Below, one piece after another: positions 28,780 to 63,678 of a DNA stretch of 64,000 nucleotides. Below the pieces are notes generated by a model. The model searched no databases. It was not told the origin of the DNA and saw nothing but the letters and a program-made list of their open reading frames with translations. The stretch's first letter is position 1. The number at the start of each line of letters is the position of its first letter. The DNA is from Membranipora membranacea (Eukaryota; Bryozoa; Gymnolaemata; Cheilostomatida; Membraniporidae). Where the stretch lies: positions 23,100,162 to 23,164,161 of the forward strand of contig OU612067.1 of the NCBI GenBank assembly GCA_914767715.1, written 5' to 3'. Position numbers and translations under genes: made by a program.

Positions 28780-29037
28780 TCAAATATACGCTAAAAAGGA
28801 CCAACCTGGTATCGGTTCGATTGTTGTGACCACTTGGTTTAGTACATCAGCAAACATGTCCGGTTGATTCTGAATTTGAATACCAGGTAGAAGATACAGT
28901 TTTCTCAGATTAGTAAAAGTACAGACAGTTTTAGGCATCTGAGTGACATAAGAGGCAGCAGTTGGAGCAGCGGCAGCACCTCGAGTCAAGTTCTGATCTG
29001 TTCTCTCTACTCCGTATCTCGTCACTGATTCTCTAAC
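28780..29037 (-). CDS. caspase p10, terminal exon
   Basis: Last coding exon (86 codons with stop), phase 0. It encodes the end of the p10 subunit: VRESVTRYGVERTD, then TQMPKTVCTFTNLRKLYLLPG, which matches the caspase pattern of Pro then a core beta strand ending in Leu-Tyr/Phe-x-x-Pro. About 40 further residues (INQPDMFADVLNQVV-like, amphipathic) extend past the usual caspase end. Confidence 0.85.
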   Translation of the reverse strand, partial: VRESVTRYGVERTDQNLTRGAAAAPTAASYVTQMPKTVCTFTNLRKLYLLPGIQIQNQPDMFADVLNQVVTTIEPIPGWSFLAYI

Positions 29038-32000
29038 CTTCAAATCATGAAATAAACGTTTTTTTTATTAACAATTGAAACTGATACCTCATATTTCGAT
29101 GTGTTATTGTAGATCATGCTATGCTACTCAGTGACTGTTACCGATAATTGTGATACTTCAGAAGAAACTATTGCTAGAAGCTAAGTTTTGGTTTGCTATC
29201 ACAAAATGCTTTTCTTTTTAGTTTATATTCTACTGAATATTGAGTTCTACAAGACCTGGTAAAATAAGAAAGACCTATTCAATGCATATTTTTAACATCG
29301 AGAAACCCAAATGTTGTGGTGTGCGTGTCACTGCAACTTACAATCTCAGCCATAGTTGTGACATCATACTTGTGTCCAAGTTTGCAGAATGTTGCAACCA
29401 CAGCTCTGATAAAAGGTGATCCAGTCCTGGGGTTCCTTGGTGAAGCGAATGCTGTCAAACAAAGTACAACGGTTATGAGTGACATTTAAGCTGTAAACTT
29501 TTGTTCTAATTAATCTTTGTCATCATAACTTAGAGAAGTAACTTACTATTACTTGAACTGTCCAGAGATATAAGTTTAGTGAAGACTGATAGAAAAAACC
29601 GCTGTAAGGAAATTATAATTCAATGTTTGGCTATTAATTACTCACAATCAAAGCTCGACTGCATGATGATCATATCAGAAATGGAAATATCTTGAGTATC
29701 AGTGTCTATTTCATCATCAGGTGACCTTGGCACTGTCATTGTTTGTCTGCTGCTATCTACATGACCTGCTGTAACAGCTGCTGGACTTGTATCCAAATCA
29801 TCTCTTAGCATCTCCCTGTTACCTGAAGTAGAAAACAAAGAAAAACGACCACATTATGACTTAATATTTGTGTGCCAATGTATCTACACCCGCCTATTTC
29901 TACCATCTAAAACAATTTGTGATTGAAAGGTTTATCATTGTATGCTGCATATTTTGTTCTAAATGTTATCGATCAGACACAACAAGGAGGAAAGTAGCCA
30001 TTGAATTGTCTTCTGGATTGTTTTGACATGAATTGATAACTTCACAAATTCATAACGGCGTGAACTGTATGACAAGAATCGGGTGTAATTTTGGGGGAGG
30101 GGGGTTCTTTTGACGATTGACTCGGCTCTCAGCACCCTCATAAGTAGATATTCTTGTTATCATATTCTCTATTCTGAACTGAACTCACCTCCAGCACATG
30201 CTTGTACTATGACAATCTTTGGTCTGCCTCTCATAACAGGGAAGTTCTTTGGAGAAAGTAGGTCATAGATATCCGTAAGCCTAATGAAGACTCTGTCACA
30301 CCCTATGATACAGCCCTCATCTCCGTGACTAGTCAGTACCAGTACAAACATTCCCATCTGTCTGTGGACTGATTGTCCCGCAGAATCTGTTCTCTGTGTT
30401 TCTCTGTGAATAGTGTCTATCATCTCCTAAGGAACAAGAAAGCAATATACCCAAAATCAATACATTGAAGTGTACATTGCAGGTTACTTAATCAACCTGG
30501 TTTCTGGCTAGTTGTGTAAGTTTTAGAAACAACTAGAAAAGTATCATTTGGGTATCATCATAGAATGATAAGTAAACTGTAGATAGTGGTTGATATTGCT
30601 TACCTTAGCAGTATAGTTGGTATGATCACCTACAGTAAAAAGCCCAAGTTTCTCAAGAACACACTTCATATTCTGATAATCATGCTCTGAGCCCCTTCTT
30701 GACTGGTTGTAGTGGTTGGACACAATCAGCGCTCTACCTCGACTTTCTGTCATCTGGTACTTGGCCTAAAATAAGACAAAAAAACAGAAAAATTGATCAA
30801 GTTATATCAATGTGTATCGCAATCTCATGATAACGGTCATCCATTCAATAACAGGCTGAAATACTGGACAAGAGCAGGTTGAGATAGTGAATGAGATACT
30901 GATTCCATTGTTACTATTACTCTTCAACTAAATCAGCCAAGTTTTAGGTATTGTAACAGTTTCAATAGTGCAGAAAATACAAATCTGATTAAAATACACC
31001 AGGATTATTTTGTTTGGCTTTGGTCAAGGATTTCTTTGTTAGTAGAACTAAGCATTGGTGTCATTATTCTGATATATAAAAACCTGATTTTCAAAACTTT
31101 GATCTGCTATTTGCGGGTCTATATTTATATCAGGCTGTCCTTGCTTCATCAGCTCCAATATATCTTCTACTTCTGTCATATGTATTCCTGCATCTTCTGC
31201 CTCTTGTTCATTGACTGTGAGAGCAAATATAAGTAGGCTATATGTAGTGTTATAAATGAGAACATGTTATTGAAGCTTTATATGGTTAGTGAGAAACAAG
31301 GGATATTGATATTATCTAGGAACCACAGTGAACTGCATAATGAGTGAATATTTGTTAGACTATCAACTGAATGTTTTTGTGGAGGTTCACAAGTTATCTG
31401 AGTAAATAACAGTGCCAATAAGTATCAATATAAAGAATAAACATGGTCTCATCACTTTTAATGCACAATCCATCTGGTTGACATTGAGACTTACTTGGGT
31501 CAACTGGCATCTGCTCCCTCTTGATGAAGTCTTCCAGCACTCTCACTCCTTCAGTGTTGATTTCCAGACCTAATGAATTACAAAAATATTGCTATTGATT
31601 GTTGTATTAAATATATTTACCTAGTAGTGAACTAAATTTTGATTTTTAAATGCATGCAAAATTAGGAGCTATGAATCATAGGGTCACAGCATACATATTA
31701 TACATATTTGACTCACATGGGAATCTGAGAGGTTTGGGAACATTTGATCCTGACACATTATCACACCGGCACGTCTCATCTCCAGTGAAGACTGTGAGAT
31801 GTGAATTGAGGGGCTTGTAGCTTTCATGTGATTTATAGCTCTTTCTGAACCATTCAGGATTGACCTGAGTCGTTGGTGACATTTGTTCTGTCAGCAGACA
31901 ATGAGAGCAGTAGAAGACATGCTCATAACGAACTCCTTTCCACACAGATTCCAGTTCAGATGTGAGCTGCTTCATCGTACCCAACAGGCTCTTCCATGCA

Positions 32001-35000
32001 TCGCAGATTCTCTTAGCTGGTGTAAGAACAATCAGTGACACTTGTTTCTTGTTCTGGTCGTGTAACAGATATCTCATTATTCCGTTATCTTCTTGTACTT
32101 GAGCACCGTTGCTACCAGCTTCTACTGTATTGACTGGATTGATGTGTATGTCTAGAAACCCTGCGGTAATCAGATGAAAGATGTACCCGGGTACCGACAT
32201 ACCGTTGAGATACAGATCGATTTTCAGTGGAAATAGCTTTGGGCTAGGTTTAGCTGCAGATATGATTTGACTGCTGAAATAAGGAATGATAAACTTCATG
32301 CTGTCATCTTCTCTCCCTATGGGCCCGCAAATCAGGTGGAATGTTTTCAGAAGTGTTACGCCCACCTCAGCTGGCAGCTCTGATTCAGATTTGAGCAGAT
32401 TGTGAAGCAGGGCAGCATCGATGACCCCTGTTGCTTTGAAATCCTCCACCATTTTCACATACTCTCGTTTGTCAACAACTCTGTCATAGAATCGGTAGGG
32501 CACAAAGACCTCAATACGATCATCCCATGTTTGGTCAACCCGATGATCATACAGTGTCCCTATGAGAGAGACAAGAACATCAGGTCGATGGAATATATAT
32601 TCACACAGCTTGTCATCGTTTTGATACCACATTATTCTTCCTATTTCATGAATGTATTGTAAGATATATCGTTTTCTGCTCTTACGGAAACCTTTCACAA
32701 TGTCAGTAACCTTAATAAAAGGCTTGTCTGTCTGCACGGTAAGATCCATGAGTGTCTTATACCAGCTACCTGGTATCTCCGTCATAAGATGAGAACCGGC
32801 TTCGCTAAGGGTCTTCTTAAGAGAATAAAAAACAGTTTCAGTCGAAGTAGCAGATAACTCCAATACAATATTGATGAGGGGCTTAGATTTGTCACTGAAG
32901 CTTGTCATAGAAAAGAAAGGGCTTGTAGGGGAACCAGCACTCTCTTCTGCCTCTATTATCTGGAGGCGCAGTTTTTCGGCTGTTGCGATAAGCTGCTGCT
33001 TTCTTATATTAAGCTGCTCTTCAGTAAGCTTATCAGTATGCGTGAGAACTAGCACTGGTTGGCCAAGGTTAGGACGTGCTAAGTAGACGTGAGATATCCA
33101 TCTCATACAAAGATCTTGTGTTGCAGCATCCTCTCCTTTATCAGTCACCAAACTGTCAAACTCTGCTATATCTATGACAAGAAGCGGGACAGACTGAGTT
33201 TTAAATGTTAATTGGTAGGCAAAGTTATACACTTTATGCCCACCAAAGTCAATAAAAACCAGTCTAGATTTGTCATCCACTTTCGCTTCACAGATATTGA
33301 ATACTCGAGTTGCTTCATCCAGCTTGGAGTCTGTAGCAGATCGTTTTGTCAGCACCCGCTGATTTTCCTGAACACTTCTAACCAGGCTTGTTTTTCCCGC
33401 TCCACTTTTGCCGAACACAGTTACTGGGATAAGTTTTACATTGCTTTCTCGCTTGAACTTTAGATCATCTAGATACTTCTGTAGAGCTTTTCTACCCTGT
33501 TTAATGACGGCGTAGGGAGGAGATAAAAGTGCCTTGCAGCTTTTACAGTTGAAGTTTGTCAGTGTTTTGTTATTGAGGAGGCTCTCAGGTATTGAGGTGA
33601 GTTCTGTGTTGTGGCTTACATCCAGATACCATAACTGTTTGAGGTTCCCAAGGCTGTAAAAAATAACCATCTTTGTTAGTTGTGGTATGAATTTTGCTTG
33701 TTTTGAGAATATTAATGATAAATTGTTAACTATTGTTGATTTAGCAATGGAAGTCTGTCTGTGTTTTATGGTTTAGAGGTGAGTTGTTTGTTGGATCTTA
33801 TATCCAGTGATTGTTAACTGTTCGAGCTTCCCAAGGCTGCCATAATCACCATATTTATAAGCTATGCTTTGTCTTTCGCTTGATCGGAGAATATTAATTA
33901 TTATTGTTGACCTGTAAGCCTATAAACCTTTGGTCTAGAAGAATTGCAATAATGAAGAAAATCTTGGACAGATAATTGGCTGGATTGAATTTTGAATGCT
34001 TGGTTATATTCTTTGTGTATTGGGTCAGGATCTCTTCAACGATTATTTGAGGAAATAACATTTATTATGTTTATTATGTCTATTTCTTTCACTAATAGGA
34101 CAAATATCGGTTTAAGCATTTATTTTGATGATGAAAGTGTTTTGATTATCAATGCTTATGATCAATTTTCGGGGGATTGCTATTTGATATTTGTTGTCAG
34201 GCTGCTATTTTGTTAAATTTCAGATCATTGAAAATCCTTAATTCTCGGCCACTTGCATCTAATGAGAAAACAAAATTGCATCCAGACAAAACAAATGACT
34301 GATAAAACGAATGTTTTATCTGATAACATAAGTCTGTCTATATTTTTGTAGTTAACCGTGGAAGGGATAATGCGTGCTTTTTGAGCTCTTTCTCCCTAAC
34401 CCATCTTTTGTTGATAACCTAAAACCTAAAAAAATTTAGTTGCCGAATCACAATGGAGCAGCCATTCTCTATGATCCCATTCGATTTTCCACTTTGAATG
34501 AAGTTGACCACTCTCAATCCAAATGGATTCCTACTATACTCACGATGATAAAACTTGCCTGTCCGTCTGGTCGGGTCTCCCGGACTTTTAATTTTTTTTC
34601 ATGTGTGCTATTGCTAAAGATAAAATAATATATTTAGACAATGAGAAATAGAGTGGGAGAAAGGCACTTTTGAAGAATAAACACTCGTTAAAGATTTGTG
34701 TCGGTGGCATGGCCATAGTCTCGTATGCTATCCATTCATTCGCGGCTTCCATACGACAAAGATCTGAAAGCAAATGAAGTAACACAAACTAATACAAACA
34801 AATATTGCATCGGTGTTATTTCCATAATTCTATAACTCCTAAGATCAATGTGAAATTGAATCCTCAAAACATATTGAGAGCAGCTTTAAAAGGTCTTTTT
34901 CTCCAGCCCCCAGCACCCTCGGATGTTAACCTCTCCAACCTCTCCAACCCTCATATTACATCCACGAAGAGTAACAAACCTAGAGATTGCCCACTAAAAT

Positions 35001-38000: not shown

Positions 38001-41000
38001 CCAGACTGCTTAAAAATTGCTCGTGTGAAACCACTTTTAAAAAAGGAGATAAAACTAGAGGTAATAGTTACAGACCGATTTTAATTTTAAATTCGACATC
38101 GAAAGTTTTAGAAAAGCTCCTTTCAATGCAAATCAGAGAGTATCTGGAGTGCAGAGATTTACTCACTAATTACCAATTTGGCTTACAACTGACGCAAATA
38201 ATATTATAATGGAACAACCTTACAACAATTTTAATGATAGAGGCATCACCCAGGGTGCGCTTTTAGATTTTTCAAATGCTTTTGATGCAATAAATCAGGG
38301 CATTCTCATCAGTAAACTGAATTTCTTTTTTGATTTTCCTCTCCCTCTTGTCGACTTTTAGAAAATTATCTTTTAAACAGAAAACAATTTGTCTTGGTTA
38401 ACGATGTTGAGTCAGGGTTATTGCAAGTCAAGATTGGATTTCCCCAGGGTTCGGTTCTCAGGCCACTTTTATTTTTGATTTATATTAACGACCTTTTAAA
38501 TGCAGCACCTGATCTAAATTATATACTTTTTGCTGATGATACAAACATTTTTAATACTTAACCTGAAGTTATGAAAAGAACTTTACCTTTGATTAATGAA
38601 TGGTGTATCACCAACCGTCTTGTTATTAACTATGAGAAAACCTTTCAAGTCCTTTTTAAAGCCCCAAACAAATTTTTAACCCTGAGGAATTCAAGCTCGA
38701 ATTCGGGAACTCTATTTTAAAAGAAAAAGGAACCAACAAATTTTTAGGACTTGAGTTAGACTCCAACCCAACTTTCCATGAGCAATTTAAAAGCCTTAAA
38801 AAGAAATTAAATTTAACTCTGATGATGATGTGAGCACTACGTCCAGCTATGGAGCTATGGAGCTAAACCGACTATCAAAGTGATTGCCAGAAGCTGCTGA
38901 ATCTATTGCAATTTTCAAACTTAAATTCCGATTGAATCCAGTTGAGTTATCAACATTTAACCCTAGCTGGGAACGATAAATCAATGATAGCTTTGAGTAA
39001 AAATCACTGTGTCTACACCCTCCAGTGACGTCGCGTCACCATAATTAAGTGCCTCACTTCAGCTATATACAGTGTCATGTCTAGGTTTATTATTAAGTCT
39101 ATGGTCTGACCATACTGATTCACAATACTACCAATACGTTCTCATGTCTAAATTAAAATATGTTGGGAGTTATCCTATCATATAAATATAGAAGATAACT
39201 GCCTTTTGCGATATGTATACGTATGTATAAGGTTAATTTGACAAACAAAGATTGCCTCACTGAGAGAACCCTTGTAATTTGATTGTTGGTATAATATACA
39301 TAAAATACAGATTCAGTTCAGAACAAGATCCTCTGTTAGCTATCTGCACCTGTCAGGTATAATTCTTTGTCAAGAGGTGTTCGATATTCTGCTATGAGAC
39401 TTTGTAGCAGAAACTGACAAATATTGAGTCGTTTTGTTAATAGCGTTTGATGTGTCTCGTAGAAAGTATATTAACAAGAAAATATTAATCTATTTAGTTG
39501 TTCTTTAAGTTGTGACCAGCAGCTCAAATCACCGGAGTGATTATCCATGGTTTTTGTCTGATGAGAACACATTCTGACATTTAAATCCTAGAATAGAACT
39601 AGGACTGTAACAAAACTATTAAGCGATTAATTGACACCCTCTTATCAACATTTATTAACCAGACCTGAATCCTAAGCTACTGTAAAGTTGCCAGCAACAG
39701 CCCATAATAATAATCATGATAATATATTTTGTTACAAATAAACAGAGAGAAGACGATACGGATACAGTATATGATGAGTGATGGTAAGATAGACGATATG
39801 ACTCACCTCTCAGGTATACTTCTTAAGTCACACCCAGACACATATATCTTCTTAAGTGACCTCATCCCTCCTAATCCTTCAGGTAATGTCTGTAGGTTCG
39901 CATTAGAGTGTAAGTATAACTCCTCCAGTTCGGTCAGTGAGCAGATGCTGAGGGAACAAAAATTTCATTCAATAATTATATATAGTTTTCCGACTTAGAT
40001 TTTATTACTGCCACTGGCTGAGGAGAAAATTAAGAACAATGGTAATCACAGGATTTCTAATGTTTGGTAAAATAATTCTATAGCAATTTATATCCAATTT
40101 TGCGTACCAGTACCACTAACAAAAAGAAGGGTGAGACTTTAGACAAGCTTAATTACCAAGTTAGAGGGCCTGTTACAAATGCGAGGCATCTTCTCTAGCA
40201 AAAGAGACAAGCAGCAAAAGAGACGAGAGGTAGTAGCACCTTAAAGGGGCACTTATTAGCCTGCAGGCTCTCAGTACAAATAAACCTAACTAAACCAACA
40301 ATACACCAGTGGCCAGTAAGCAATACAATCCTGGTGTTTTAAAAAATAATACTACCAACACATTCTAAATCATAAAATTAAATATGTTGGGAGTTATCCT
40401 GCCTTATAATTATAGAAGATAACTGCCTTTTGCCATGTGTATCAAAGGCTAATTTGACAATTAAAAAGGTTCTGAGAGAACCCATGTATTTCTATTATTA
40501 ATGAAAGAAATATAAAGTACAGATTCAGTTCAGTACATGATACCCTGTTATCTATCTGCACCTGGCAGGTACATATCCAGCTTTGTCAACAGGTATTAGA
40601 AATTCAGCCATGAGACTTTGTAGTGAAAACTGACAAATATTGAGTTGTTTTGTTTACAATGTATGATATGTTTTGTAGAATATAATTACCTATTGGCTGC
40701 AATTAGGATATTCATGGTAAAAAAATATGGATTTGCTCGGTTTGTTTTCACCCTGTGTGGTATGCTCTATGATATAATTTCACCCAGCACGGTCTCTGGA
40801 TACAGCAGTTACAGTTAGTCTCAGTCAACCATGATTTTGTTTGAGTATCTTAAAATTACTTATTGATAACATTTTTGTGACAGTCACTGAGATATTGTTA
40901 AAAGTAAAGTAGTAGTAAAATATATGCAGAGGGTACTATGTTATGATTAACATTAACAACACAAAAAACAAAGAGGTCTCATTATTTTATCTGTGTAAAT

Positions 41001-44000: not shown

Positions 44001-47000
44001 TTTATAGCGAAACACCAAAAAAAAATTATCCCAATGAACTGCCTGTAGGCCATCAGTCACAATAAACCGAACTAAATCAACAATACACCAGTGGTCAGTA
44101 AACAATAAAAACAATGAATAGAGAATCTCCAATCCTGGTGTTCAAAAAATGATTTGTCTTTTAAAAGGCTGCAAAAGATGATAGAGCAAATGAGATGTAT
44201 CAAGCTGGATGGAATAATTATGTTTGACCCTGCTGATTTAGAATAATACCGATACAATTTCATTCCTTGATCTTTCCATATTAAAAAATAAGATTACTGC
44301 TTGTGGTATTCAATAATTTGCAGTGTGCATCCAAGTTTTATCTGCCAAATGCAATTACATTTGATTTATTCGTATATGATATAAAATGTACAGAATAAGA
44401 TCATGCCGATGATACCATGTGATTTATCTGCACCTAATAGGTAATGAGGTAATTTTTTTAGACAACGGGCCTGGTGTGAGTTATTCTCTAATAGGTCTTT
44501 GTAGCAGAAACTAAAAAAAATATTGAGTTGCTCTGTTTATAGTGTCATCTGATTGTTATCTCCTAATCTGAAAGTGAGTGCAATGGTGGTATTAAGGGAT
44601 TGAGGCAAATGAACAACAGTTTTTCACAATTATTTATTTATTTTAATTGTTTTATGTATGACAATCAGCAGTGTAATAGTCACTTCAATTTCCTTGGATG
44701 TATGTTCAATCATTCCATGTTTTGATATTATATTGATAGAGAACAAAGTGCTTTTAATAAGCGATAATATTTTTAGTATCACCTCAGGACTTGACATTAA
44801 TCAACCCCTACCCACAGAGTGATGTGATGACTGACTGGATGTGATATCACTTACTTAGCTGTAAGCATTGTCACGACTACTAGCAAGTAGTTTGAGTAGG
44901 CCGTACTTCTAGAGTACACTGTGCAGTTGAGCACAGTAGCTAAAAGTGTGTCAGGTGATGATTATTACATGGTGGCTTAAGGCTTGTCAGGTGAAAATCA
45001 TGACAGAGCGCGGAAAATGTCCGAAGTTTTATTCACTGCGCAAGGCATATTTGTTTCCCCATCAAACCAGTCCCTGTATGAACTCATTTACACTTGAGTG
45101 TCATGGTGTGTTATATAATCACTAATTGGCTGCACCTATGATATTCATGGTCGTAAATTACCAAGTCGCTCCATTTTTTTGTGATATAATTTTGACCAAA
45201 AGCGTGGTAATTTCTATGATATTACTTCATCCAGCATGGTCTCTGGATACAGCAGTTACAGTGGGTCTCAGTTCAAACCATGTTTTCATTCCACATATCC
45301 AGAGATTACTATGTAATGATAAATGAGCAACACAAAAAGAGGTCTCATTATTTAATCTGAAGAATTTACATGAGCAGGGAGTTTTGTTGGTGATAGATGA
45401 GATGTCAGTAAAAGTACAAAAATGTGACAGGGGCTGCTGATAACTAGCATTCTGATATGACAATTATGTCATTTTATGTCATAATTTTGACAACAGCTTC
45501 ATTTGGCGATTGCCACCTTAGATAAGGGAAGAGAAATTTCAGTATAAATAGACATTAAATCAAATCATCTTATACTAATTTGGTGAAACCATTTTTGAAG
45601 CACTGTCCCAAAATATTTTTACAAAAATCATTTTGATTACGGTAAAAAATGATAAAATGTTCACCTCTATTGTGAAATATCATATAAAACAACAAATCAT
45701 AAGCTTTACACCGATTGTATATCACAAGCCAATGTACATCTAACTGCTGGGTGTCTGTTTTGACGGATACGTATTGAACCAGTGAAAAGTATATTAGCAC
45801 CAAGATATTAATTGATTTCCTTGTCCTCATAGTTGTGACCAGCATCTCAAATCACCGGAGTGATTCCCCCGGGTTTTTTTTCTAATGAGAACAGATTTAT
45901 GATTTTCTGACATTAAAATCCAAGTATTGAACTAGTACTGTAACAAAACTCTTGATAACTTCATAAACAGACCTGAATCCTAAGATACAGTAAAGTTGCC
46001 AGCGACCCCCCATACTAATGATAAATCATGACAATACAATTTGTTACAAATAAACACAGAGAGGAAACAATACAGTTACAGTATATGATGAGTGATGGTG
46101 AGATAGAGGATATGACTCACCTCTCGGGTAGAGTTCTCAAGTCACACTCGGACATTTGTATACTCTTAAGCGACCTCATCCCTCCTAGTCCTTCAGGTAA
46201 TGTCTGTAGGTTCCTATTACTGTATAAGGATAACTCCTCCAGTTCGGTCAGTGAGCAAATGCTGAGGGAACAAAAGATTCATTCAATAATTATATATAGT
46301 TTTCCGACTTAGATTTTATTACTGCCACTGACTAAGAAAATTAACAACAATGATAATCACTGGATTTCATATATTAATTTTATATTAAATTTAACCCAAT
46401 TTTGCATACCAGTAGCACTAACAAAAATAGGTTGAGACTTAGGACAACCTTAATTACCAAGCTAGGGGGCCCGTGAAAAGTGTGAGGCGCCTTCTCTGAC
46501 AAAAAGGACAAGACCCAAAAGAGACGATAGACAGTGCCCTGCTAAGGGGCACCTATCAGCCTGTAGGCTCTCAGTATGAATAAAACTACTAAAACAACAA
46601 TACACCAGTTCTCAGTAAGCATTACAAAGAGTTAATAGAGAGTTTCTTTTCCTGGTGTTTGATAAAATCTCATTTCCACAATTAACTATGTTAGGAGATA
46701 TGTTGTCATATGAATAGAGAAGATAACTGCCCTTTGTCACGTGTATCAAAGGTTAATTTGACGATAAAAGATATTCTGAGACAACCCATGTATTTGAATT
46801 ATTAGTATAAGATATATATATATAGTACAGATTCCGTTCAGTACATGATACCCTGTTATCTATCTGCACCTGACAGTGTCTACGATTTGTAAGATATGTA
46901 ATGAAATTGTTAAAAGTATATTAACAAGAAAATATAAATCCATTGCCTTGTTCCTTTAATTGTGACCAGCATCTCAAATCGCCGCAGAGATTCCCCGGTT

Positions 47001-53000: not shown

Positions 53001-56000
53001 TATATCATGTAATATATGATACCCAAGCGCAAGGTTTTTATACCAAAATATTTTTACAAAAATCATTTTGATTACGGTAAAAAATGATAAAATGTTCACC
53101 TCTATTGTGAAATATCATATAAAACAACGAATCATAAGCTTTACACCGATTGTATATCACATGCCAATGTACATCTAACTGCTGGGTGTCTGTTTTGACG
53201 GATACGTATTGAACCAGTGAAAAGTATATTAGCACCAAGATATTTATCGATTTCCTTGTCCTCATAGTTGTGACCAGCATCTCAAATCACCGGAGTGATT
53301 CCCCCGGTTTTTTTTTCTAATGAGGACAGATTTATGATTTTCTGACATTAAAATCCAAGTATTGAACTAGTACTGTAACAAAACCCTCAATAATTTAATA
53401 AACAGACCTGAATCCTAAGATACAGTAAAGTTGCCAGCAACCCCCCATAATAATGATAAATCATGACAATACAATTTGTTACAAATAAACACAGAGAGGA
53501 AACAATACAGTTACAGTATATGATGAGTGATGGTGAGATAGAGGATATGACTCACCTCCCTGGTAACCTTCTCAGGTCACAGAGAGACACTTTTATATTC
53601 TTAAGTGACCTCATCCCTCCTAGTCCTTCAGGTAATGTCTGAAGGTTCTTATTATTGTATAAGTATAACTCCTCCAGTTCGGTCAGTGAGCAGATGCTGA
53701 GGGAACAAAAATTTAATTCAATAATTATATATAGTTTTCCGACTTAGATTTTATTACTGCCACTGGCTGAGAAGAAAATTAACAACAATAATAATCACGG
53801 GATTTCTAGTGTTTGGTAAGATAATTTAAAGTTAAATCATGTCCAATTTTGCATACAAAGTACCACTAACAAAAAGTAGGTTGAAACTTTGAACAACCTT
53901 GATAAGCAAGCTAGGGGGCATTTTACAAGTGTGAAACATCTTCTCTAACAAAAGAGACAAGAAGCAAAAGAGACGAGAGGCAGTGGCATGTTAAAGGGGC
54001 CCTTATCAGCCTGCAGGCTCTCAGTATCAATAAACCTAACTAAAACTGCAATACGACAGTGGTCAGTAAGCATAACAAACAGTTGATAGAGAATTTCTTA
54101 TCCTAGTGATTTAAAAATAAGGATTTTTTTATCAGGATGTAAAATTAACTAAGTTTGACCATGCATATTCAGAATACTACCGATACATTCTCATTCCTAA
54201 AATTAAATATGTTGGGAGTTATCCTGTCATATAAATATAGAAGATAATTACCTTTTGCCATGTGTATCAAAGGTGAACTTGACACCAAAATATTGCTTTT
54301 CTGAGAGAACCCTTGTATATGTATCATTAGTATAAGATGTATAAAGTGCAGATTCAGTTCAGTACATGAAACCCTGATATCTATCTGCACCTGACAGGTA
54401 CATAATCCTTGTCAACAGGTGTTAGATATTCTGCTATAGTACATTGTAGCGGAAACTGACAAATATTGAGTGGTTTTGTTCATAATGTTATAATGTGTTT
54501 TGTTAAATGTAATCACTAATTGGCTGCAGTTAAGTTTTTCTTGGTCCAAGATTCTGGAGTGTCTCAGTGTTTTTTGTGATGAAATTTTCACCCAGTGTGG
54601 TATGGTCTATGATATAACTTCAGCTAGCATGGTCTCTGAATACAGCAGTTACAGTTAGTCTCAGTCAACCATGGAAAATTGTCAGTTACATATGAGACAG
54701 GGACATTGACTTCGGATAACTTTCAGTTTAGTCAGACAGAGATGACATTTGGATGTGATGATTCTGAAACCGCTTTATATGGCAATTCCCAAATAAGATA
54801 GGATGTGATATTTCAGAATTGATGGTCATAAAAATCTTTTCGATGCACTGTCACATGTGCTACTAACATTTTTGCATAACTTATTTACTAAACTTTGTTG
54901 TACATATTCATTGTCAACCGGTGTTAGATAACCTGCTATAAGACTTTGTAGCGGAAACTGACAAATATTGAGTTGTTTTGTTTATAATGTTATGGTCCAA
55001 AACTCTAGAGTTGCTCGGTTTTTTTAAAAACCATGATCTCAAATCAAGTTTGTTGAAACTGAATATCGGAAATATTTTTGTAACAGTCACCTACATAATT
55101 GTTAGGGGGTAAAACATATCCCACCGTCATGTAATGATTAATGATCACCGAAGGGGTCTCATCACATATTCTATGATATCTACACCTGCTATTTCGTTAT
55201 CAGTCACAGATGAGACCTCATGTATTAGTACACAAATTTGACAGGAATTACTGATAACTATCAGTGTGGTATGGTAGTGATGACTTTTGGATCTCATAAT
55301 TCTGGCTACAGCTTCATGTGGTGAGGCCCAAATGAGATGAGAGAGGATAAATGGTATTGGTGATGGTATGTTTTGAAAGATTGTAACGTGGGAAGAATAC
55401 AAAACACTAAGATATCTTCATCCTTATAATTGTGACCAGCACATTAGGGCTTATTAGACAATCCTACTTAACAATCCCTCTAAGGCTCAGGCAGCCCTTG
55501 AGGAGCTGTGATGCTTATCAATTTCCCACTTGTGTCGACCACTGTTTTTTTGATGAGGCAGTCGCGGCGAAACTGTAATAGGGTCAAACAAAAACATACC
55601 AAACAACACATGTTTACCAACTGTTCCAAACAGACCAGGCTAGAACGAACAGCTTCCCTGTACCAAACCAGAAACAAAGTTTTGCACAGATAATTATGTC
55701 AGAAAATGTGATCTTTTGATGACAAGTCATTGCCCTTAATCTAAGACCGTTCCTGAATCCGAACTGTTTTATTCATTTTTTTAATAACGAAAACCTCTAT
55801 GGATGATCAAGTGGTAAACTCACACGGGTAGGGGTAGGGGTTTTGCAGGAATAATTTTTACCTGCAAAACCTAGCTGACCAAATTTGAGCCTGAAAAACC
55901 GTCTTCCCCAAAACTTTGCCAAGGTCTTAACAATTTATCGCAATATGTCACAAAAGCTACATTGTGCGGATCTCTGAGATTGCATTCTATAGAGTGATGT

Positions 56001-59000
56001 TTTAAAGTAGATATTAAAAAATGTATCTCATTAAACAGTCATATTAATATAAATTTTAGAGAAGATCTCTTTCTCTTTACCTCCTGCATGATAAATAACC
56101 GATAAGCTAGACATAATCAAATATGAAAACCTGAAAAGAGGTCACCCAGGGACAGGACCCTTATGTATCATTCTAGTATCACAATGTGATTGATAAAACA
56201 GGCTCACCAAAAGAGACAATCTCACAGGGGGGGCCGGGGGGCCGTCGGACAGGGGGCAAAGTCTGGGGGGCTCAGACTATGTATGATGTGGTGACACGAT
56301 TGTGGATATGACTCACCTTTCTGGCAATCTACTCAGATCACACCCTCCCAAATCTAACCTCTTCAATGTTCTCAGCTCGCAGAGTCTATCAGGTAGGCTG
56401 TGTAGAGAGTTATTTGATAAATCTAATGACTCCAGTTCTGTCAGCGAGAGGATACTGCAGATAGATATCAAATTTGACAATTAATTAATAATGTTCAGGA
56501 TAATTTTACAAATTTACCTACAAGGCGCATTAATTACATCATATATAACCAGTGCACAATATATATACTAAATATATTTCTATAAATTGGGTGGTGGAAA
56601 ATTTATAGAAATACCCGTGCATGGTGAATTATCACAATAGCTCAAGGTCGGTTAGCGTAATGGCCACGTATTTAATTTCTTGCTTCTAATCTTCCAGGTT
56701 CACTTAACTCATGTCTCAGATCTCTAATCGCGAATATAACTACTATGTAGTAACCAGGTGTGTCATCCATTTTGAGCCCAAATAGCCTGTTATTGCCAAA
56801 ACTTTACTTGTACACATATTTTGTTTTTCACCATTAGACTTTTTCAGGGATGCTTTCTGGTTCCGGAACCCCGATAGTTAGGTTACATCAGGAAATCTGC
56901 TCAATCTTAAAGGGATGATAACTCCAGCAATATATAATTTATTTTGAATGACTGAATTTATATCACCTGACTTTGGCTTTCCAACTTGATAACTGAATAA
57001 CACATTAAACATTTTTTTGTTCGAAACAAACTGTAATAGGGTCAAACAAAAACATACCAAACAACACATGTTTACCAACTGTTCCAAACTGACCAGGCTA
57101 GAATGAACAGCTTCCCTGTACCAAACCAGAAACAAAGTTTTGCACAGGTAATTATGCCAGAAAATGTAATCTTTTGATCACAAGTCATTGCCCTTAATCT
57201 AAGACCGTTCCTGAATCCGAACTGTTTTATTCATTGTTTAATAACGCAAACCTCTATGGATGAACAAGTGGTAAAGTCACACGGGTAGGGGTAGGGGTTT
57301 TGCAGGTATAATTTTTACCTGCAAAACCTAGCTGACCAAATTTGAGCCTGAAAAACCGTCCTCCCCAAATCTTTGCCAAGGTCTTAACAATTTATCGCAA
57401 TATGTCACAAAAGCTACATTATGCGGATCTCTGAGATTGCATTCTATATTATAGTGATCTTTTAAAGTAGATATTAAAAAATGTATCCCATTAAACAGTC
57501 ATATTAATATAAATTTTAGAGAAGATCTCTTTCTCTTTACCTCCTGCATGATAAATAACCGATAAGTTAGACATAATCAAATATGAAAACCTGAAATGAG
57601 GTCACCCAGGGACAGGACCCTTATGTATCATTCTAGTATCACAATGTGATTGATAAAACAGGCTCACCAAAAGAGACAATCTCACAGGGGGGGCCGGGGG
57701 GGCCGTCGGACAGGGGGCAAAGTCTGGGGGGCTCAGACTATGTATGATGTGGTGACACGATTGTGGATATGACTCACCTTTCTGGCAATCTACTCAGATC
57801 ACACCCTCCCAAATCTAACGTCTTCAATGTTCTCAGCTCGCAGAGTCTATCAGGTAGGCTGGATAGAAGGTTAAATGATAAATTTAATGACTCCAGTTCT
57901 GTCAGAGAGAGGATACTGCAGATAAATATTAAATTTGACAATTAATTAATAATGTTCAGGATAATTTTACAAATTTACCTACAAGGCGCATTAATTACAT
58001 CATATATAACCAGTGCACAATATATATACTAAATATATTTCTATAAATTGGGTGGTGGAAAATGTATAGAAATGTCCGCGCATGGTGAATTATCACAATA
58101 GCTCATGGTCGGTTAGCGTAATGGCCGCGTATTTAATTTCTTGCTTCTAATCTTCCCGATTCACTTAACTCATGTCTCAGATCTCTAATCGCATATATAA
58201 CTATTATGTAGTAACCAGGTGTGTCATCCATTTTGAGCCCAAATAGCCTGTTATTGCCAAAACTTTACTTGTACACATATTTTGTTTTTCACCATTAGAC
58301 TTTTTCAGGGATGCGTTCTGGTTCCGGAACCCCGATAGTTAGGTTACATCAGGAAATCTGCTCAAGCTTAAAGGGATGATAACTCCAGCGATATATAATT
58401 TATTTTGAATGACTGAATTTATATCACCTGACTTTGGATTTCCAACTTGATAACTGAATAACACATTAAACATTTTTTTGTTCGAAACAAACTGTAATAG
58501 GGTCAAACAAAAACATACCAAACAACACATGTTTACCAACTGTTCCAAACAGACCAGGCTAGAATGAACAGCTTCCCTGTACCAATCCAGAAACAAAGTT
58601 TTGCACAGGTAATTATGCCAGAAAATGTAATCTTTTGATCACAAGTCATTGCCCTTAATCTAAGACCGTTCCTGAATCCGAGCTGTTTTATTCATTGTTT
58701 AATAACGCAAACCTCTATGGATGAACAAGTGGTAAAGTCACACGGGTAGGGGTAGGGGTTTTGCAGGTATAATTTTTACCTGCAAAACCTAGCTGACCAA
58801 ATTTGAGCCTGAAAAACCGTCCTCCCCAAATCTTTGCCAAGGTCTTAACAATTTATCGCAATATGTCACAAAAGCTACATTGTGCGGATCTCTGAGATTG
58901 CATTCTATATTATAGTGATCTTTTAAAGTAGATATTAAAAAATGTATCCCATTAAACAGTCATATTAATATAAATTTTAGAGAAGATCTCTTTCTCTTTA

Positions 59001-62000
59001 CCTCCTGCATGATAAATAACCGATAAGCTAGACATAATGAAATATGAAAACCTGAAAAGAGGTCACCCAGGGACAGGACACTTATGTATCATTCTAGTAT
59101 CACAATGTGATTGATAAAACAGGCTCACCAAAAGAGACAATCTCACAGGGACAGTGTATGATGTGGTGATACGATTGTGGATATGACTCACCTTTCTGGC
59201 AATGTACTCAGATGACACCAACTCAAATCTAACGTCTTCAATGTTCTCAGCTCGCAGAGTCTATCAGCTAGGCTGGATAGAGGGTTAAATGATAAATTTA
59301 ATGACTCCAGTTCTGTCAGAGAGAGGATACTGCAGATAAATATTAAATTTGACAATTAATTAATAATGTTCATGATAATTTTACAAATTTACATTCAAGG
59401 CGCATTAATTACATCATATATAACCGGTGCACAATAATACTAAATATATTTCTATAAATTGGGTGGTGGAAAATGTATAGAAATGCCCGCGCATGGTAAA
59501 TTATCACAATAGCTCAAGGACGGTTAGCGTAATGGCCACGTATTTAATTTCTTGCTTCTAATCTTCCAGATTCACTTAACTCATGTCTCAGATCTCTAAT
59601 CGCAAATATAACTACTATGTAGTAACCAGGTGTCATCTATTTTGAGCCCAAATAGCCTGTTATTGCCAAACTTTACTTGTACACATATTTTGTTTTTCAC
59701 CATTAGACTTTTTCAGGGATGCTTTCTGGTTCCAGAACCCCGATAGTTAGGTTACATCAGGAAATCTGCTCAATCTTAAAGGGATGATAACTCCATCGAT
59801 ATATAATTTATTTTGAATGACTGAATTTATATCACCTGACTTTGGCTTTCCAACTTAATAACTGAATAACACATTAAACATTTTTTTGTTCGAAACAAAC
59901 TGTAATAGGGTCAAACAAAAACATACCAAACAACACATGTTTACCAACTGTTCCAAACAGACCAGGCTAGAATGAACAGCTTCCCTGTACCAAACCAGAA
60001 ACAAAGTTTTGCACAGGTAATTATGTCAAATAATGTAATCTCTTGATGACAGGTCATTGCCCTTAATCTAAGACCGCTCCTGTATCTGAACCATTTTATT
60101 CATTGTTTAATAACACAAACCTCCATGGATGAACAAGTGGTAAACTCACATGGGTAGGGGTAGGGGTTTTGCAGGTATAATTTTAACCTGCAAGACCTAG
60201 CTGACCAAACTTAAGCCTGAAAAACCGTGTTCCCCAAAACTTTGCCAAGGTCTTGACAATTTATCGCAATATGTCACAAAAGCTACATTGTGCGGATCTC
60301 TGAGATTGCATTCTATATAGTGATGTTTTAAGGTAGATACTAAAATATTGTATCTCATTAAACAGTCATATTAATAAAAATTTTAGAGAAAATCTCTTTC
60401 TCTTTAACTCCTACATGATAAATAACCGTTAAGCTAGACATAATCAAATATGAAAACCTGAAAAGAGGTCACCCATGGACAGGACACTTATGTATCATTC
60501 TAGTATCACAATGTGTTTGATAAAACAGGCTCACCAAAAGAGACAATCTCACAGGGACAGTGTATGATGTGGTGATACGATTGTGGATATGACTCACCTT
60601 TCTGGCAATCTACTCAGATCACACCAACTCAAATCTAAGCTCTTCAATGTTCTCAGCTCGCAGAGTCTATCAGGTAGGCTGTGTAGAGAGTTACGTGATA
60701 AATCTAATGACTCCAGTCCTGTCAGTGAGAGGATACTGCAGATAAATATTAAATTAGACAATTAATTGATAATGTTCATGATAACTTTACAAATTTACCT
60801 ACAAGGCGCATTAATTACATCATATATAACCGGTGCACAATATATATACTATATATATTTCTATAAATTGGGTGGTGGAAAATGTATAGAAATGCCCGCG
60901 CATGGTGAATGATCACAATAGCTCAAGGTCGGTTAGCGTAATGGCCACGTATTTAATTTCTTGCTTCTAATCTTCCAGATTCACTTAACTCATGTCTCAG
61001 ATCTCTAATCGCAAATACAACTATTATGTAGTAACCAGGTGTGTCATCTATTTTGAGCCCAAATAGCCTGTTATTGCCAAAACTTTACTTGTACACATAT
61101 TTTGTTTTTCACCATTAGACTTTTTCAGGGATGCTTTCTGGTTCCAGAACCCCGATAGTTAGGTTACATCAGGAAATCTGCTCAAGCTTAAAGGAATGAT
61201 AACTCCAGCAATATATAAATTATTTTGAATGACTGAATTTATATCACCTGACTTTGGCTTTCCAAATTAATAACTGAATAACGTACATTAAACATTTTTT
61301 TGATTCAAAACAAACTGTAATAGGGTCAAACAAAAACATACCAAACAACACATGTTTACCAACTGTTCCAAACAGACCAGGCTAGAATGAACAGCTTCCC
61401 TGTACCAAACCAGAAACAAAGTTTTGCACAGGTAATTATGTCAGAAAATGTAATCTTTTGATGACAAGTCATTGCCCTTAATCTAAGACCGTTCCTGAAT
61501 CCGAACTGTTTTATTCATTGTTTAATAACGCAAACCTCTATGGATGAACAAGTGGTAAAGTCACACGGGTAGGGGTAGGGGTTTTACAGGTATTATTTTC
61601 ACCTGCAAAACCTAGCTGACCAAATTTGAGCCTGAAAAACGGCTTCTCCAAAGATTTGCCAAGGTCTTAACAATTTATCGCACTATGTCACAAAAGCTAC
61701 ATTGTGCGGATCTCTGAGATTGCATTCTATATAGTGATGTTTTAAAGTAGATATTAAAAAATCTATGTCATTAAAAGGTCATATTAATATAAATTTTAGA
61801 GAAGATCTCTTTCTCTTTACCTCCCGCATGATAAATAACCGATAAGCTAGACATAATCAAATATGAAAACCTGAAAAGAGGTCACCCAGGGACAGGACAC
61901 TGATGTATCATTCTAGTATCACAATGTGATTGATAAAACAGGCTCACCAAAAGAGACAATCTCACAGGGACAGTGTATGATGTGGTGATACGATTGTGGA

Positions 62001-63678
62001 TATGACTCACCTTTCTGGCAATCTACTCAGACAACACCAACTCAAATCTAACCTCTTCAATGTTCTCAGCTCGCAGAGTCTATCAGGTAGGCTGTGTAGA
62101 GAGTTATTTGATAAATCTAATGACTCCAGTTCTGTCAGCGAGAGGATACTGCAGATAATGGTGCGGTGCATAATATATATACTAAATATATTTATATAAA
62201 TTGGGTGGTGGAGAATGTATAGAAATGCCCGCGCATGGTAAATTATCACAATAGCTCAAGGTCGGTTAGCGTAATGGCCGCGTATTTAATTCCTTGCTTC
62301 TTATCTTCCAGATTCACTTAACTCATGTCTCAGATCTCTAATCGCAAATATAACTACTATGTAGTAACCAGGTGTGTCATCTATCTTGAGCCCAAATAGC
62401 CTTTTATTGCCAAAACTTTACTTGTACACATAATTTGTTTTTCACCATTAGACTTTTTCAGGGACGCTTACTGGTTCCAGAACCCCGATAGTTAGGTTAC
62501 ATCAGGAAATCTGCTCAAGCTTAAAGGGATGATAACTCCAGCGATATATAATTTATTTTGAATGACTGAATTTATATCACCTGTGTTTGGCTTTCCAACT
62601 TAATAACTGAATAACACGTTAAACATTCTTTTGTTCGAAACAAACTTGCTAATGTCATTGCACCTCAAATATATGGTACCACTAACCGTTCTAACTGATC
62701 TGAGTGTGGTGTCTCTCCGAGTTTGAGTTGTTTCAGATGCGGAGCTATCTCATGTAGATTAGGAGGGATATTACCGTCTATCCTCATTTGTGTAATTTGT
62801 ATTCTTTGTGATGCCTCTGTCAGCTCTTGTAATGTCATTGACTTTACTGACACATCCGAAAGTGGGAGGTCAACTTGAGGTTGCCCAGCATGTCTGTACC
62901 CGACATGATAACCTGAAAGGTGAGTAATAACAGAAAACATTTGAGCTCTATATTAATGTTTTTTTTTAATTTTCTGTGCTCACATTCGAACTCCAATAAG
63001 GATGATCTTGATTTATAGAACATGAATTAGAGGCATAAACACATGTATTCAACAGTGAAGTGATCAATATGAGACCCAATACACTTTTTAAGTTCTAAAA
63101 CAGTTCTGTAACAACAAGATAAGCGAGAAGACAATCAATAATCACAGAACATTAATATGCATACTATATTTACTTTTACTTTTTACTTTCATTTTCATTG
63201 GTATGCTGTAGGCCTAGTTGACCTTACAAAAACAGACACTCAAACACCATATATATTATGTTTCCTGTGCCTTGAATGGATTTCATGAACTGGAGAAGGA
63301 ACAACAATAATAATTATTCTAGGAGTCAGTTGTTGATTAAGAAAACAAATTGCACGCTTTACAAGTTTGTAATTTGACTTGACTATGTTTAAAATAAACT
63401 AGCCTGTATTCAGTATGACGCCAAGGGTGAGAATGTTGGTAAAAGAGAATCAAGTGTGTATGCAGATGGATCTTGGGTAGTGCTCACTTCATTCACTATC
63501 ATGTACTCCGCTCTTTTATTTACATCAACACAGCCGCAAAATTTAGAAAACTGGTTGGTATCAACAGAGGATTTATAGTTTTATGAGTCTCACCTTGACC
63601 TTCTTCCTCAGTGTTTCTCCTCAGCTCACTCTTCCTAGCACTGTCTGCCCCACTAGGATCCTCATTCTGCGATGTCAT
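28780..63678 (-). CDS. LRR-Roc-COR-caspase fusion gene, complete CDS
   Basis: Eighteen coding exons on the minus strand chain from ATG (63678-63676) to TGA (28782-28780) with every junction phase-consistent; they total 4512 nt, or 1503 codons plus stop. Domains by approximate residue: N-terminal polar segment 1-28; LRR region 60-520 (about 19 repeats of 23-24 residues); Roc GTPase from 545; COR to about 1000; Cys-containing region to 1120; linker 1120-1189; caspase 1190-1503. Roc shows GKSGAGKTS (G1), DFGGH (G3), THTDK (G4) and SAT (G5). The caspase keeps SHGDEG and QACAG. ROCO proteins are GTPase switches (LRRK, DAPK1 and MFHAS1 are relatives) and caspases are cysteine proteases of death and inflammation, so a sensor-switch-protease role is a fair inference. 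The exon linking COR to caspase has a weak donor (31083), so two separate genes cannot be excluded without a transcript. Confidence 0.82.
29342..29451 (-). CDS. caspase p10, substrate-pocket exon
   Basis: Encodes FASPRNPRTGSPFIRAVV and CKLGHKYDVTTMAEI. The Ser-x-Arg followed by a Gly-Ser pair aligns with the YSWRNSKDGSWF segment of caspase-3, so the p10 Arg of the Asp-binding S1 pocket is present. Donor GTAAGT; phase 1 in, 0 out. Confidence 0.88.
29646..29822 (-). CDS. caspase inter-subunit linker exon
   Basis: Joins p20 to p10. It is Asp/Ser/Thr-rich (DDLDTSP, GHVDSSR, SPDDEIDTDTQD) and ends DMIIMQSSFD, the strand that starts p10. Several Asp residues followed by small residues could be processing sites, as in executioner and initiator caspases; which is used cannot be read from sequence. 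Phase 1 in and out. Confidence 0.82.
30189..30426 (-). CDS. caspase p20, catalytic exon
   Basis: Carries both catalytic residues: His in LTSHGDEG and Cys in IVQACAGG. The preceding amphipathic helix (MIDTIHRETQ) and the core strand (MFVLVLTSHG) are normal. The usual QACRG has Ala in place of Arg, a variant outside the catalytic pair. Starts in phase 0 and ends in phase 1. Confidence 0.92.
30604..30765 (-). CDS. caspase p20, N-terminal exon
   Basis: Encodes YQMTESRGRALIVSNHYN, then SRRGSEHDYQNM and LEKLGLFTVGDHTNYTA. This is the classic start of the caspase fold (Tyr-x-Met, Arg-Gly, core strand Leu-Ile-Val). The Arg in the RRGSEHD segment aligns with the p20 Arg of the S1 pocket (Arg64 in caspase-3). 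Exactly 54 codons, phase 0 both sides. Confidence 0.9.
31084..31214 (-). CDS. linker exon between COR and caspase (second)
   Basis: Encodes INEQEAEDAGIHM then TEVEDILELMKQGQPDINID, acidic and probably helical, with no death-fold signature that I recognise. The acceptor is good. The donor is weak (CAG|GTTTTT) and was chosen because it gives phase 0, as the next exon requires; without it the frame stops soon after. Confidence 0.6.
31495..31569 (-). CDS. linker exon between COR and caspase (first)
   Basis: A 75-nt exon encoding LEINTEGVRVLEDFIKREQ and MPVDP. Good acceptor and a GTAAGT donor, phase 1 on both sides, matching the exon before and after. It is the strongest evidence that the Roc-COR and caspase parts belong to one transcript. 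Confidence 0.75.
31717..33653 (-). CDS. last LRR plus Roc GTPase and COR domain exon
   Basis: A single 1937-nt exon. It opens with the last LRRs (LGNLKQLWYLDVSHN, SIPESLL), then the PP-x-x-x-x-x-x-G junction typical of LRR-ROCO proteins. The Roc domain follows: P-loop GKSGAGKTS, DFGGHKVYN, THTDKL and ELSATS. COR follows (SWYKTLMDL, RKRYILQYIHEIGRIMWY, FHRPDVLVSLIGTLYD). After COR there is a basic and Cys-bearing stretch with YCSHCLL and ETCRCDN, possibly a metal site. It ends at CCCAT|GTGAGT in phase 1. The nucleotide-binding motifs are intact, so GTP binding is expected. Confidence 0.9.
33770..33836 (-). pseudogene. relic copy of the LRR/Roc exon start
   Basis: About 183 nt upstream (in gene direction) of the real exon lies a diverged copy of its acceptor and first codons: a CAG acceptor, then LGKLEQL, then a stop after about 22 codons. 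Flanking intron sequence is also duplicated. A small tandem duplication that has decayed. Confidence 0.7.
33837..35560. other. intron sequence without recognised features
   Basis: Part of the intron between the B3 LRR exon and the Roc exon. AT-rich; short open frames only, none with a domain I recognise. Confidence 0.5.
35583..36459 (+). pseudogene. LINE copy 1 ORF1, broken
   Basis: Begins with a Ser/Thr/Pro-rich segment, then in another frame a coiled coil (35675-35944, heptad-like RIDTIERKQKETEDKQTEME). After in-frame stops at 35942 and about 35967 comes LRITGILF, and after another shift a C-terminal domain (KIFINEYLNPAEQKLFYLAR, YKYTWTSHNQVFMRKK). Coiled coil plus this C-terminal type is common in LINE ORF1 proteins and resembles the baculovirus FP-like fold. 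It should bind RNA, but this copy is dead. Confidence 0.65.
36520..38950 (+). pseudogene. LINE copy 1 ORF2 (endonuclease and reverse transcriptase), broken
   Basis: Endonuclease: LHLNIRCLSQKM, LSETWF, GGGIVIYV, VGDVNIDLN, LDHIIVKNS and SDHKPVCASF, the AP-endonuclease motifs. The longest open part is 36785-37432. RT follows in pieces: FNDFFINV at 37560-37907, then NYLLNRKQFVL-like and FADDTNIF, so the catalytic Asp pair is still present. Many stops and shifts; not functional. Confidence 0.75.
39807..39947 (-). CDS. LRR exon B3
   Basis: A 141-nt exon, phase 2 to phase 2, coding two LRRs: ICSLTELEELYLHSNANLQT, LPEGLGGMRSLKKIYVSGC, DLRSIPE. Good CCTCAG acceptor and GTGAGT donor. It joins the Roc exon downstream, where the junction completes LPES. 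Closest to B1 and B2. Confidence 0.85.
41757..44030 (+). mobile_element. LINE copy 2, 5'-truncated ORF2
   Basis: Begins abruptly inside the endonuclease (ELIQSQCFYNLIQSPTRIGE) and runs through RT (FADDTNVF near 43200) to a 3' end followed by an A-rich run near 44022. Several frames; no intact ORF. Nearly identical to copy 1 in shared parts. Both flanks equal those of copy 3, so the two came from one insertion that was then duplicated. Confidence 0.85.
46121..46261 (-). CDS. LRR exon B2
   Basis: A 141-nt exon, phase 2 to 2: ICSLTELEELSLYSNRNLQT, LPEGLGGMRSLKSIQMSEC, DLRTLPE. Acceptor CCTCAG, donor GTGAGT. Two LRRs of 24 and 23 residues. Confidence 0.85.
47275..47305 (-). pseudogene. relic LRR exon of B type, internally deleted
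   Basis: Keeps the CCTCAG acceptor and about 28 nt of coding sequence (ICxLTxLE), then jumps straight to intron sequence. About 113 nt including the donor are gone, apparently joined at a short CTC/ACTC match. It stands where B3's duplicate should be. Confidence 0.8.
49024..51405 (+). mobile_element. LINE copy 3, 5'-truncated ORF2
   Basis: Starts inside the endonuclease (GESGRDVCTVPAVYRVPSG) and ends in an A-rich run near 51400. The longest open part, 50308-51036, covers RT motifs A to E (DFSKAFDTI, GVPQGSVLRPLLF). The catalytic FADD reads FADH, so this RT would be inactive even without its other stops. Confidence 0.85.
53556..53696 (-). CDS. LRR exon B1
   Basis: A 141-nt exon, phase 2 to 2: ICSLTELEELYLYNNKNLQT, LPEGLGGMRSLKNIKVSLC, DLRRLPG. 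The last Glu of LPE is Gly here. Acceptor CCTCAG, donor GTGAGT. Confidence 0.85.
53711..55560. other. intron with exon-less B-type units
   Basis: Intron between A5 and B1. It holds two further diverged pieces of the B unit (near 54400 and 54930, marked by the GACAAATATTGAGT motif), with no LRR exon in either. Confidence 0.6.
56225..56275 (+). repeat. G-rich tract in A5 unit
   Basis: Runs of five to seven G separated by short spacers, next to exon A5. The same tract is in the A4 unit (57686-57732) but is replaced by a short ACAGTG joint in units A1-A3. Potential G-quadruplex. Confidence 0.8.
56317..56454 (-). CDS. LRR exon A5
   Basis: A 138-nt exon (46 codons, phase 2 to 2) with two 23-residue LRRs: ILSLTELESLDLSNNSLHSL, PDRLCELRTLKRLDLGGC, DLSRLPE. 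Acceptor CTGCAG, donor GTGAGT. Confidence 0.88.
57778..57915 (-). CDS. LRR exon A4
   Basis: Same 138-nt design. First repeat LESLNLSFNLLSSLPDRL resembles A3; second repeat LKTLDLGGCDLSRLPE resembles A5 in the GGCD block. The mosaic suggests recombination between units. Confidence 0.88.
59192..59329 (-). CDS. LRR exon A3
   Basis: Same 138-nt design, open: LESLNLSFNPLSSLADRL, LRTLKTLDLSWCHLSTLPE. The usual Pro of LPD is Ala in the first repeat. Confidence 0.87.
60598..60735 (-). CDS. LRR exon A2
   Basis: Same 138-nt design: ILSLTGLESLDLSRNSLHSL, LRTLKSLDLSWCDLSRLPE. Confidence 0.88.
62011..62148 (-). CDS. LRR exon A1
   Basis: Same 138-nt design: LESLDLSNNSLHSLPDRL, LRTLKRLDLSWCCLSRLPE. First of the array in the protein. 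Its intron side was altered by a deletion, leaving a weak pyrimidine tract before CTGCAG. Confidence 0.87.
62687..62912 (-). CDS. second coding exon, start of LRR region
   Basis: A 226-nt exon, phase 1 to 2. Encodes YHVGYRHAGQPQVDLPLSDV, then helix-like LQELTEASQRIQ and a first irregular LRR (MRIDGNIPPNLHEIAPHL, KQLKLGE). The donor GTTAGT is less than ideal, but the phase matches all LRR exons. Confidence 0.8.

Follow-up and report, generated by a model that had tools for sequence, protein, structure and literature searches.

Gene model and domain order

The window, by which we mean the whole 64,000-nucleotide stretch of Membranipora membranacea DNA that was analysed, carries on its minus strand, between positions 63678 and 28780, a gene model of 18 exons and 17 GT-AG introns, which was spliced by hand and reads without a single internal stop into a predicted protein of 1503 residues (Table 1). 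The predicted protein is composed of an N-terminal region, LRRs, a Roc GTPase, COR, a linker, and a caspase with its catalytic His and Cys, in this order. We selected the splice sites of the model visually so that the phases agree; the donor that follows linker exon B, GTTTTT, is weak. The rebuilt splice model bears out, in coordinates and in content, the chain of 18 phase-compatible exons that a preliminary description had placed on this strand. In the 780 bases past the stop (28780 to 28000), neither AATAAA nor ATTAAA is present. A scan for sigma-70 promoters and terminators was set aside as inapplicable to an animal gene.

Table 1. Exons of the predicted LRR-Roc-COR-caspase gene, listed in the direction of transcription
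Feature	Position in window	Strand	Remarks
Exon 1	63594..63678	-	start codon, N-terminus; GT donor, phase 1
Exon 2	62687..62912	-	N-terminal region, YRHAGQPQVDLPLSD..; similar stretch in Watersipora P0001, P0002, and P0007
LRR exon, two repeats	62011..62148	-	phase 2-2
LRR exon	60598..60735	-	phase 2-2
LRR exon	59192..59329	-	phase 2-2
LRR exon	57778..57915	-	phase 2-2
LRR exon	56317..56454	-	phase 2-2
LRR exon	53556..53696	-	phase 2-2
LRR exon	46121..46261	-	phase 2-2
LRR exon	39807..39947	-	phase 2-2
Large exon: last LRR, Roc GTPase, and COR	31717..33653	-	profile and fold matches
Linker exon A	31495..31569	-	aligns in most Watersipora homologues
Linker exon B	31084..31214	-	poorly conserved; contains EVED, which may be read as a cleavage site
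Caspase exon 1, start of large subunit	30604..30765	-	
Caspase exon 2: catalytic His (SHG) and Cys (QACAG)	30189..30426	-	
Caspase exon 3: Asp-rich intersubunit linker, start of small subunit	29646..29822	-	
Caspase exon 4: substrate-pocket Arg, GSPFI	29342..29451	-	
Caspase exon 5 and stop	28780..29037	-	3' end provisional

Relatives in Watersipora

A protein search with the Roc-COR-caspase part of the window returns three proteins, all of them from the bryozoan Watersipora subatra and 29-31% identical to the query, and a second search, with the caspase of the Watersipora protein P0001 as query and a permitted protein size of about 760-2430 residues, returns 11 predicted proteins, query included, which all belong to the same species. 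Nine of these 11 also carry LRRs and a P-loop Roc. The other two records start inside Roc, P0006 past the P-loop and P0010 within it, and are probably incomplete gene models. The 11 proteins, which are encoded on contigs of seven different sizes, are gene predictions. The Ensembl annotation of Watersipora was built mainly from transcript alignments (PMC12902671, excerpt), but these 11 bear names given by NCBI, some members being called MFHAS1-like. No species besides Watersipora passed an E value of 0.001 in these protein searches, which need shared five-residue words and are of low sensitivity; the Roc-COR-caspase search recovered three of the 11 Watersipora proteins and the profile search described below only one, and all counts are lower bounds. 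No vertebrate-named protein occurs among the matches of the three protein searches. The predicted LRR-Roc-COR-caspase proteins form a family, which is expanded in at least one bryozoan.

At the C-terminal end, the tail past the last shared motif measures 10 residues or fewer in eight of the 11 Watersipora proteins, versus 33 in the window model. In P0003, the caspase is followed by fibronectin type III repeats (six stretches) and a C-terminal hydrophobic stretch, which is perhaps a membrane anchor; members of the family therefore need not all be cytosolic.

The caspase domain

Once spliced, the C-terminal exons give a match to PF00656 (1.2e-30; 107.4 bits against a cut-off of 21.4) over profile positions 1-227 of 233. 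The motifs SHG and QACAG are intact, as is the pocket Arg (ASPRNP), so that the caspase with catalytic His and Cys noted in the preliminary description is confirmed. Its nearest solved relative is CED-3 (3.6e-18), followed by caspase-2, an ancestral effector caspase, and caspase-9, and the predicted domain is accordingly of the animal type. Large and small subunits, QACxG, and the His/Cys dyad are all present, each residue of the dyad being kept in 12 of 12 aligned proteins (the window and the 11 from Watersipora). The pocket Arg is kept in nine of the 12, the window among them, and is replaced by Lys in P0002 and P0007. P0010 is without most of the small subunit. Between the caspase subunits of P0002 and P0010 lies a long Ser/Thr-rich repeat, like STSAPQSTTVN.

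The Roc-COR core

In the window alone, Roc scores 26.1 bits, just under the Pfam cut-off of 27, and COR-A 20.1 bits, under its cut-off of 35.3. In a test set of 20 family members, made up of the window and 19 of the 30 short-contig relatives described below, Roc is matched in 18 and COR-A in 15 at E<=0.01, and the family profile matches the Roco protein of C. tepidum at 1.2e-15. An AlphaFold model of the large window exon (mean pLDDT 73, pTM 0.75) has Roco, LRRK1, and LRRK2 as its top Foldseek matches, with moderate TM-scores of about 0.5 by query length; the match to Roco reaches an E value of 7.6e-19 and a TM-score of 0.51, and that to the Roc-COR structure of Roco (3dpu) an E value of 3.2e-17. 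COR directly follows Roc, as seen from the COR-A matches of the members and from the fold match of the window exon. The predicted succession of LRRs, Roc, and COR, sub-threshold for the latter two in the window taken singly, is firm once relatives and fold are included.

The preliminary description had also credited Roc with all nucleotide motifs. This holds for G1 (the P-loop GKSGAGKTS), G3 (DFGGH), and G4 (THTDK), but not for G5, for which LSA is one reading that finds no alignment with Watersipora. The P-loop core GK[TS]S is present in 11 of the 12 aligned proteins, the 12 including P0006 and P0010 with the late starts given above. A model of the Watersipora protein P0005 (pLDDT 69, pTM 0.56) matches Roco and LRRK over its LRR-Roc-COR part, with caspases lower in the list and TM-scores again moderate; its caspase small subunit is of low confidence, with many blocks of pLDDT < 50.

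A wider family of Roc-COR exons

A profile search, which scored just the 7993 candidates with the most words in common, yields 34 matches, namely P0002, 30 ORFs on short contigs (P0012-P0041), and three ordinary ROCOs (P0042-P0044). The short contigs measure 2.5-12.6 kb, and over the Roc-COR part 29 of the 30 ORFs are 38-59% identical to the window, P0041 reaching 26%. After a conserved P.P[LF]..PC, the next residue is E or K in 23 of the 30 and R in one, while one ORF ends there and five lack the motif. E or K is what TGT-GAG or TGT-AAG would yield at this place if an ORF continued through a T/GTGAG or T/GTAAG donor, and the family therefore seems to splice onward at that donor. We read the 30 ORFs as single exons of the same family, in what is probably animal DNA within metagenomes. 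In a Roc-COR tree (FastTree, rooted on P0042, with P0043 and P0044 left out), the window pairs with P0015 (0.89), both lie inside the short-contig set (0.98), and P0041 falls outside it; one deep node has a support of 0.15. A search of viral contigs found no relative, and one of genome contigs found six ordinary bacterial ROCOs.

LRR exon arrays

Eight LRR exons of 138 or 141 nt encode two LRRs each and are all of phase 2-2, so that they can be gained or lost without a change of frame. Five of the units, at 55.5-62.5 kb, lie 1.33-1.46 kb apart and are tandem copies that are 65-99% alike in gapless blocks. In every one of the 10 exon pairs that these five form, dN is greater than dS, though the pairs are not independent of one another; in eight of the 10, divergence is higher in the exon than in either flanking intron stretch. 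The changes amount to 20 non-synonymous and two synonymous ones, versus 57 in 571 intron columns (non-synonymous versus intron, p=0.007; non-synonymous versus synonymous, p=0.06), so that the test comprises 22 changes, drawn from tandem copies among which gene conversion may occur. The changed codons favour the exposed positions of LxxLxLxxNxL (7/12 versus 4/33, p=0.003), a set chosen after the changed codons were known, and those of the narrower LxxLxLxxN (5/10 versus 6/35, p=0.048). In the three further LRR exons, at 53.6, 46.2, and 39.9 kb, dN is below dS in three of three pairs. For the five recent copies, these figures are suggestive, and only suggestive, of diversifying selection. At 47273-47404, the window contains an apparent LRR exon remnant, in which the acceptor and the first codons are kept and most of the exon is gone.

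The linker

The linker exon just after COR aligns between the window (PKPLRFPCLEINTEGVRVLEDFIK) and P0001 (PKPLKLPCFQLHKDEVEMLKSYLA), and in most Watersipora members the alignment covers some 25 residues past COR. Conservation is weak past the residues next to COR, the whole linker being just 8-18% identical to Watersipora. The linker of 10 of the 11 Watersipora proteins contains [DE]S[DE][LVI]SD, which is a plausible Asp cleavage site or, equally, a CK2 site; the motif is missing from P0003 and from the window, which has EVED instead.

Comparison with known systems

MFHAS1/MASL1 and other animal ROCOs have the LRR-Roc-COR core in common with the window; to our knowledge, MFHAS1 is without a caspase, and DAPK and LRRK carry kinases. 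The apoptosome and the inflammasome, which consist of APAF1 or an NLR plus a caspase, resemble the predicted protein in having a sensor, an NTP switch, and an induced proximity of caspases, but they are built by CARD-mediated assembly around a STAND ATPase, whereas the window encodes one chain with a Roc GTPase. Among peptidases, IPR009003 is an entry that we take to be trypsin-like. In brown algae, ROCOs show phase-2 LRR exons, exon shuffling, and diversifying selection, with LRR exons of 72 bp and one repeat versus 138/141 nt and two repeats in the window, and their group 3 has a C-terminal peptidase, which is assigned to IPR009003, not to the caspases, and was set apart for that reason (PMC11378527, excerpt).

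Bacterial LRR-AP-GTPase-COR proteins carry at least 24 different C-terminal effector domains, a caspase among these (PMC8195603, excerpt). They share with the window the order of LRR, GTPase, COR, and C-terminal effector, and differ from it in that the window caspase is of the predicted animal type, nearest to CED-3, and its gene is spliced. The six bacterial ROCOs that were fetched are 21-27% identical, and PF00656 is found in none of them (0/6; one, L005, is cut off by the contig end). Separate assembly of the bacterial and animal architectures looks likelier than recent transfer. The preliminary description knew of no described protein with a caspase at the ROCO C-terminus, which does not stand for bacteria, where the arrangement is in print (PMC8195603, excerpt), and does for animals, of which no such description was found among the open-licence papers listed. 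Among 30 listed papers out of 157 that matched on ROCO and caspase, PMC8195603 alone contains both 'roco' and 'caspase domain'. The architecture is thus already known from bacteria, and it is the animal version that appears to be new.

In the main text of two bryozoan genome papers (PMC12902671; PMC13326412), the word caspase is absent, and LRR or leucine has no occurrence in a further paper (PMC7836458). A survey of Toll receptors reports none in the Bugula neritina transcriptome and six in Membranipora (PMC8609888, excerpt), so that the phylum varies in its receptor sets.

Proposed function and alternatives

LRRs provide surfaces for ligands, proteins with Roc-COR act as switches and form dimers, and initiator caspases are activated by proximity. 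With a probability of about 0.62, we consider this one gene to encode a probably cytosolic receptor of the LRR-Roc-COR type whose C-terminal effector is a caspase; such a protein would be a self-contained sensor, switch, and protease for cell death. The LRR surface would bind a pathogen, danger, or self/non-self ligand, whereupon Roc would pass to another nucleotide state and the Roc-COR dimer would change as well. This change could bring two caspase domains together, much as the apoptosome and the inflammasome do through CARD or DED contacts, and the paired caspases would process themselves and perhaps also cut the linker between COR and caspase, freeing the active enzyme. The cell would then die or signal, and a death-fold adaptor would be unneeded. 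That ligand sensing, GTP switching, and protease activation are joined in one chain, as the preliminary description had proposed, is what we infer from the domain order, and the Watersipora family suggests immune or self-recognition receptors able to trigger cell death without adaptors. A bolder extension, which we regard as possible yet rather doubtful, is that bryozoans possess a large and diversifying repertoire of one-chain LRR-GTPase-caspase proteins that replaces adaptor-built inflammasomes, renews its LRR specificity through tandem birth of phase-2 exons, and releases the enzyme by way of a self-cleavable linker between COR and caspase.

If correct, the main reading would give animals a receptor that senses, switches with GTP, and activates its caspase without a partner. 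The way in which a Roc-COR switch acts on the effector attached to it, a matter debated for LRRK2, could then be tested directly, with the caspase as read-out. The reading also suggests that animals possess a counterpart of a bacterial architecture, one that has expanded in a colonial phylum of little-studied immunity.

The alternative that survives best accepts the fusion as real and assigns it to developmental cell death or to allorecognition between colonies instead of pathogen defence; it is unlikely, though by no means negligible, and overlaps with the main reading, which commits to no single kind of ligand. Bryozoans are listed among the colonial animals with allo-incompatibility (PMC8195603, excerpt), and a diversified LRR repertoire fits self/non-self recognition as well as pathogens, whereas an expansion with varied LRRs is less expected of a purely developmental switch. 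It is improbable, in our estimate, that the caspase is a regulated signalling protease which cuts one substrate and does not kill, in the manner for which MALT1 is the model: the Lys at the pocket position of P0002 and P0007 implies that specificity may differ within the family, but the domain is by sequence an animal caspase, close to CED-3, caspase-2, an ancestral effector caspase, and caspase-9, and the pocket Arg is kept in the window and most of its aligned relatives.

Least probable, and very much so, is that an over-long model merged two neighbours on the same strand, namely a ROCO gene that stops past COR and a separate caspase gene. Such a pair of genes would agree with a COR exon that reads on to a stop 13 codons past its donor, with an ATTAAA at 31462, with the missing AATAAA or ATTAAA after the caspase stop, and with the low identity of the linker. 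All exon phases fit, however, the identical join recurs in the predicted Watersipora proteins, and the E or K after the final PC in 23 of the 30 Roc-COR exon relatives is that expected of a T/GTGAG or T/GTAAG donor. Upstream of the linker and caspase exons, back to the stop that precedes them, the reading frame contains no ATG, but in-frame ATGs inside both linker exons and caspase exon 1, which make a separate start possible, weaken this argument and raise our small estimate for two genes slightly. A false join of neighbouring genes appears unlikely because 11 predicted Watersipora proteins have the same caspase, nine of which also possess LRRs and a Roc with P-loop, and the single chain is thereby supported.

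Other features of the window

On the plus strand, positions 2841-26600 contain many exons of one or more CUB-domain genes, of which four of four tested ORFs match PF00431 and the others were recognized by eye. This CUB neighbour, together with the introns and the animal type of the caspase, indicates that the window is probably animal DNA. Three similar LINE-like copies, also on the plus strand, are located in introns of the gene at 36.7-38.6, 41.7-43.9, and 48.9-51.3 kb, and the element matches a reverse transcriptase at 1.3e-21, its endonuclease remaining below the cut-off. The last two copies are 7.3 kb apart, and two LRR exons are separated by nearly the same distance (7.4 kb), as though exon and element had been copied jointly; the first copy (36.7-38.6 kb) is out of this register of about 7.3 kb. 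At the left end of the window, positions 1 to about 150 form a short tandem repeat that reads VSVLVSVL in translation.
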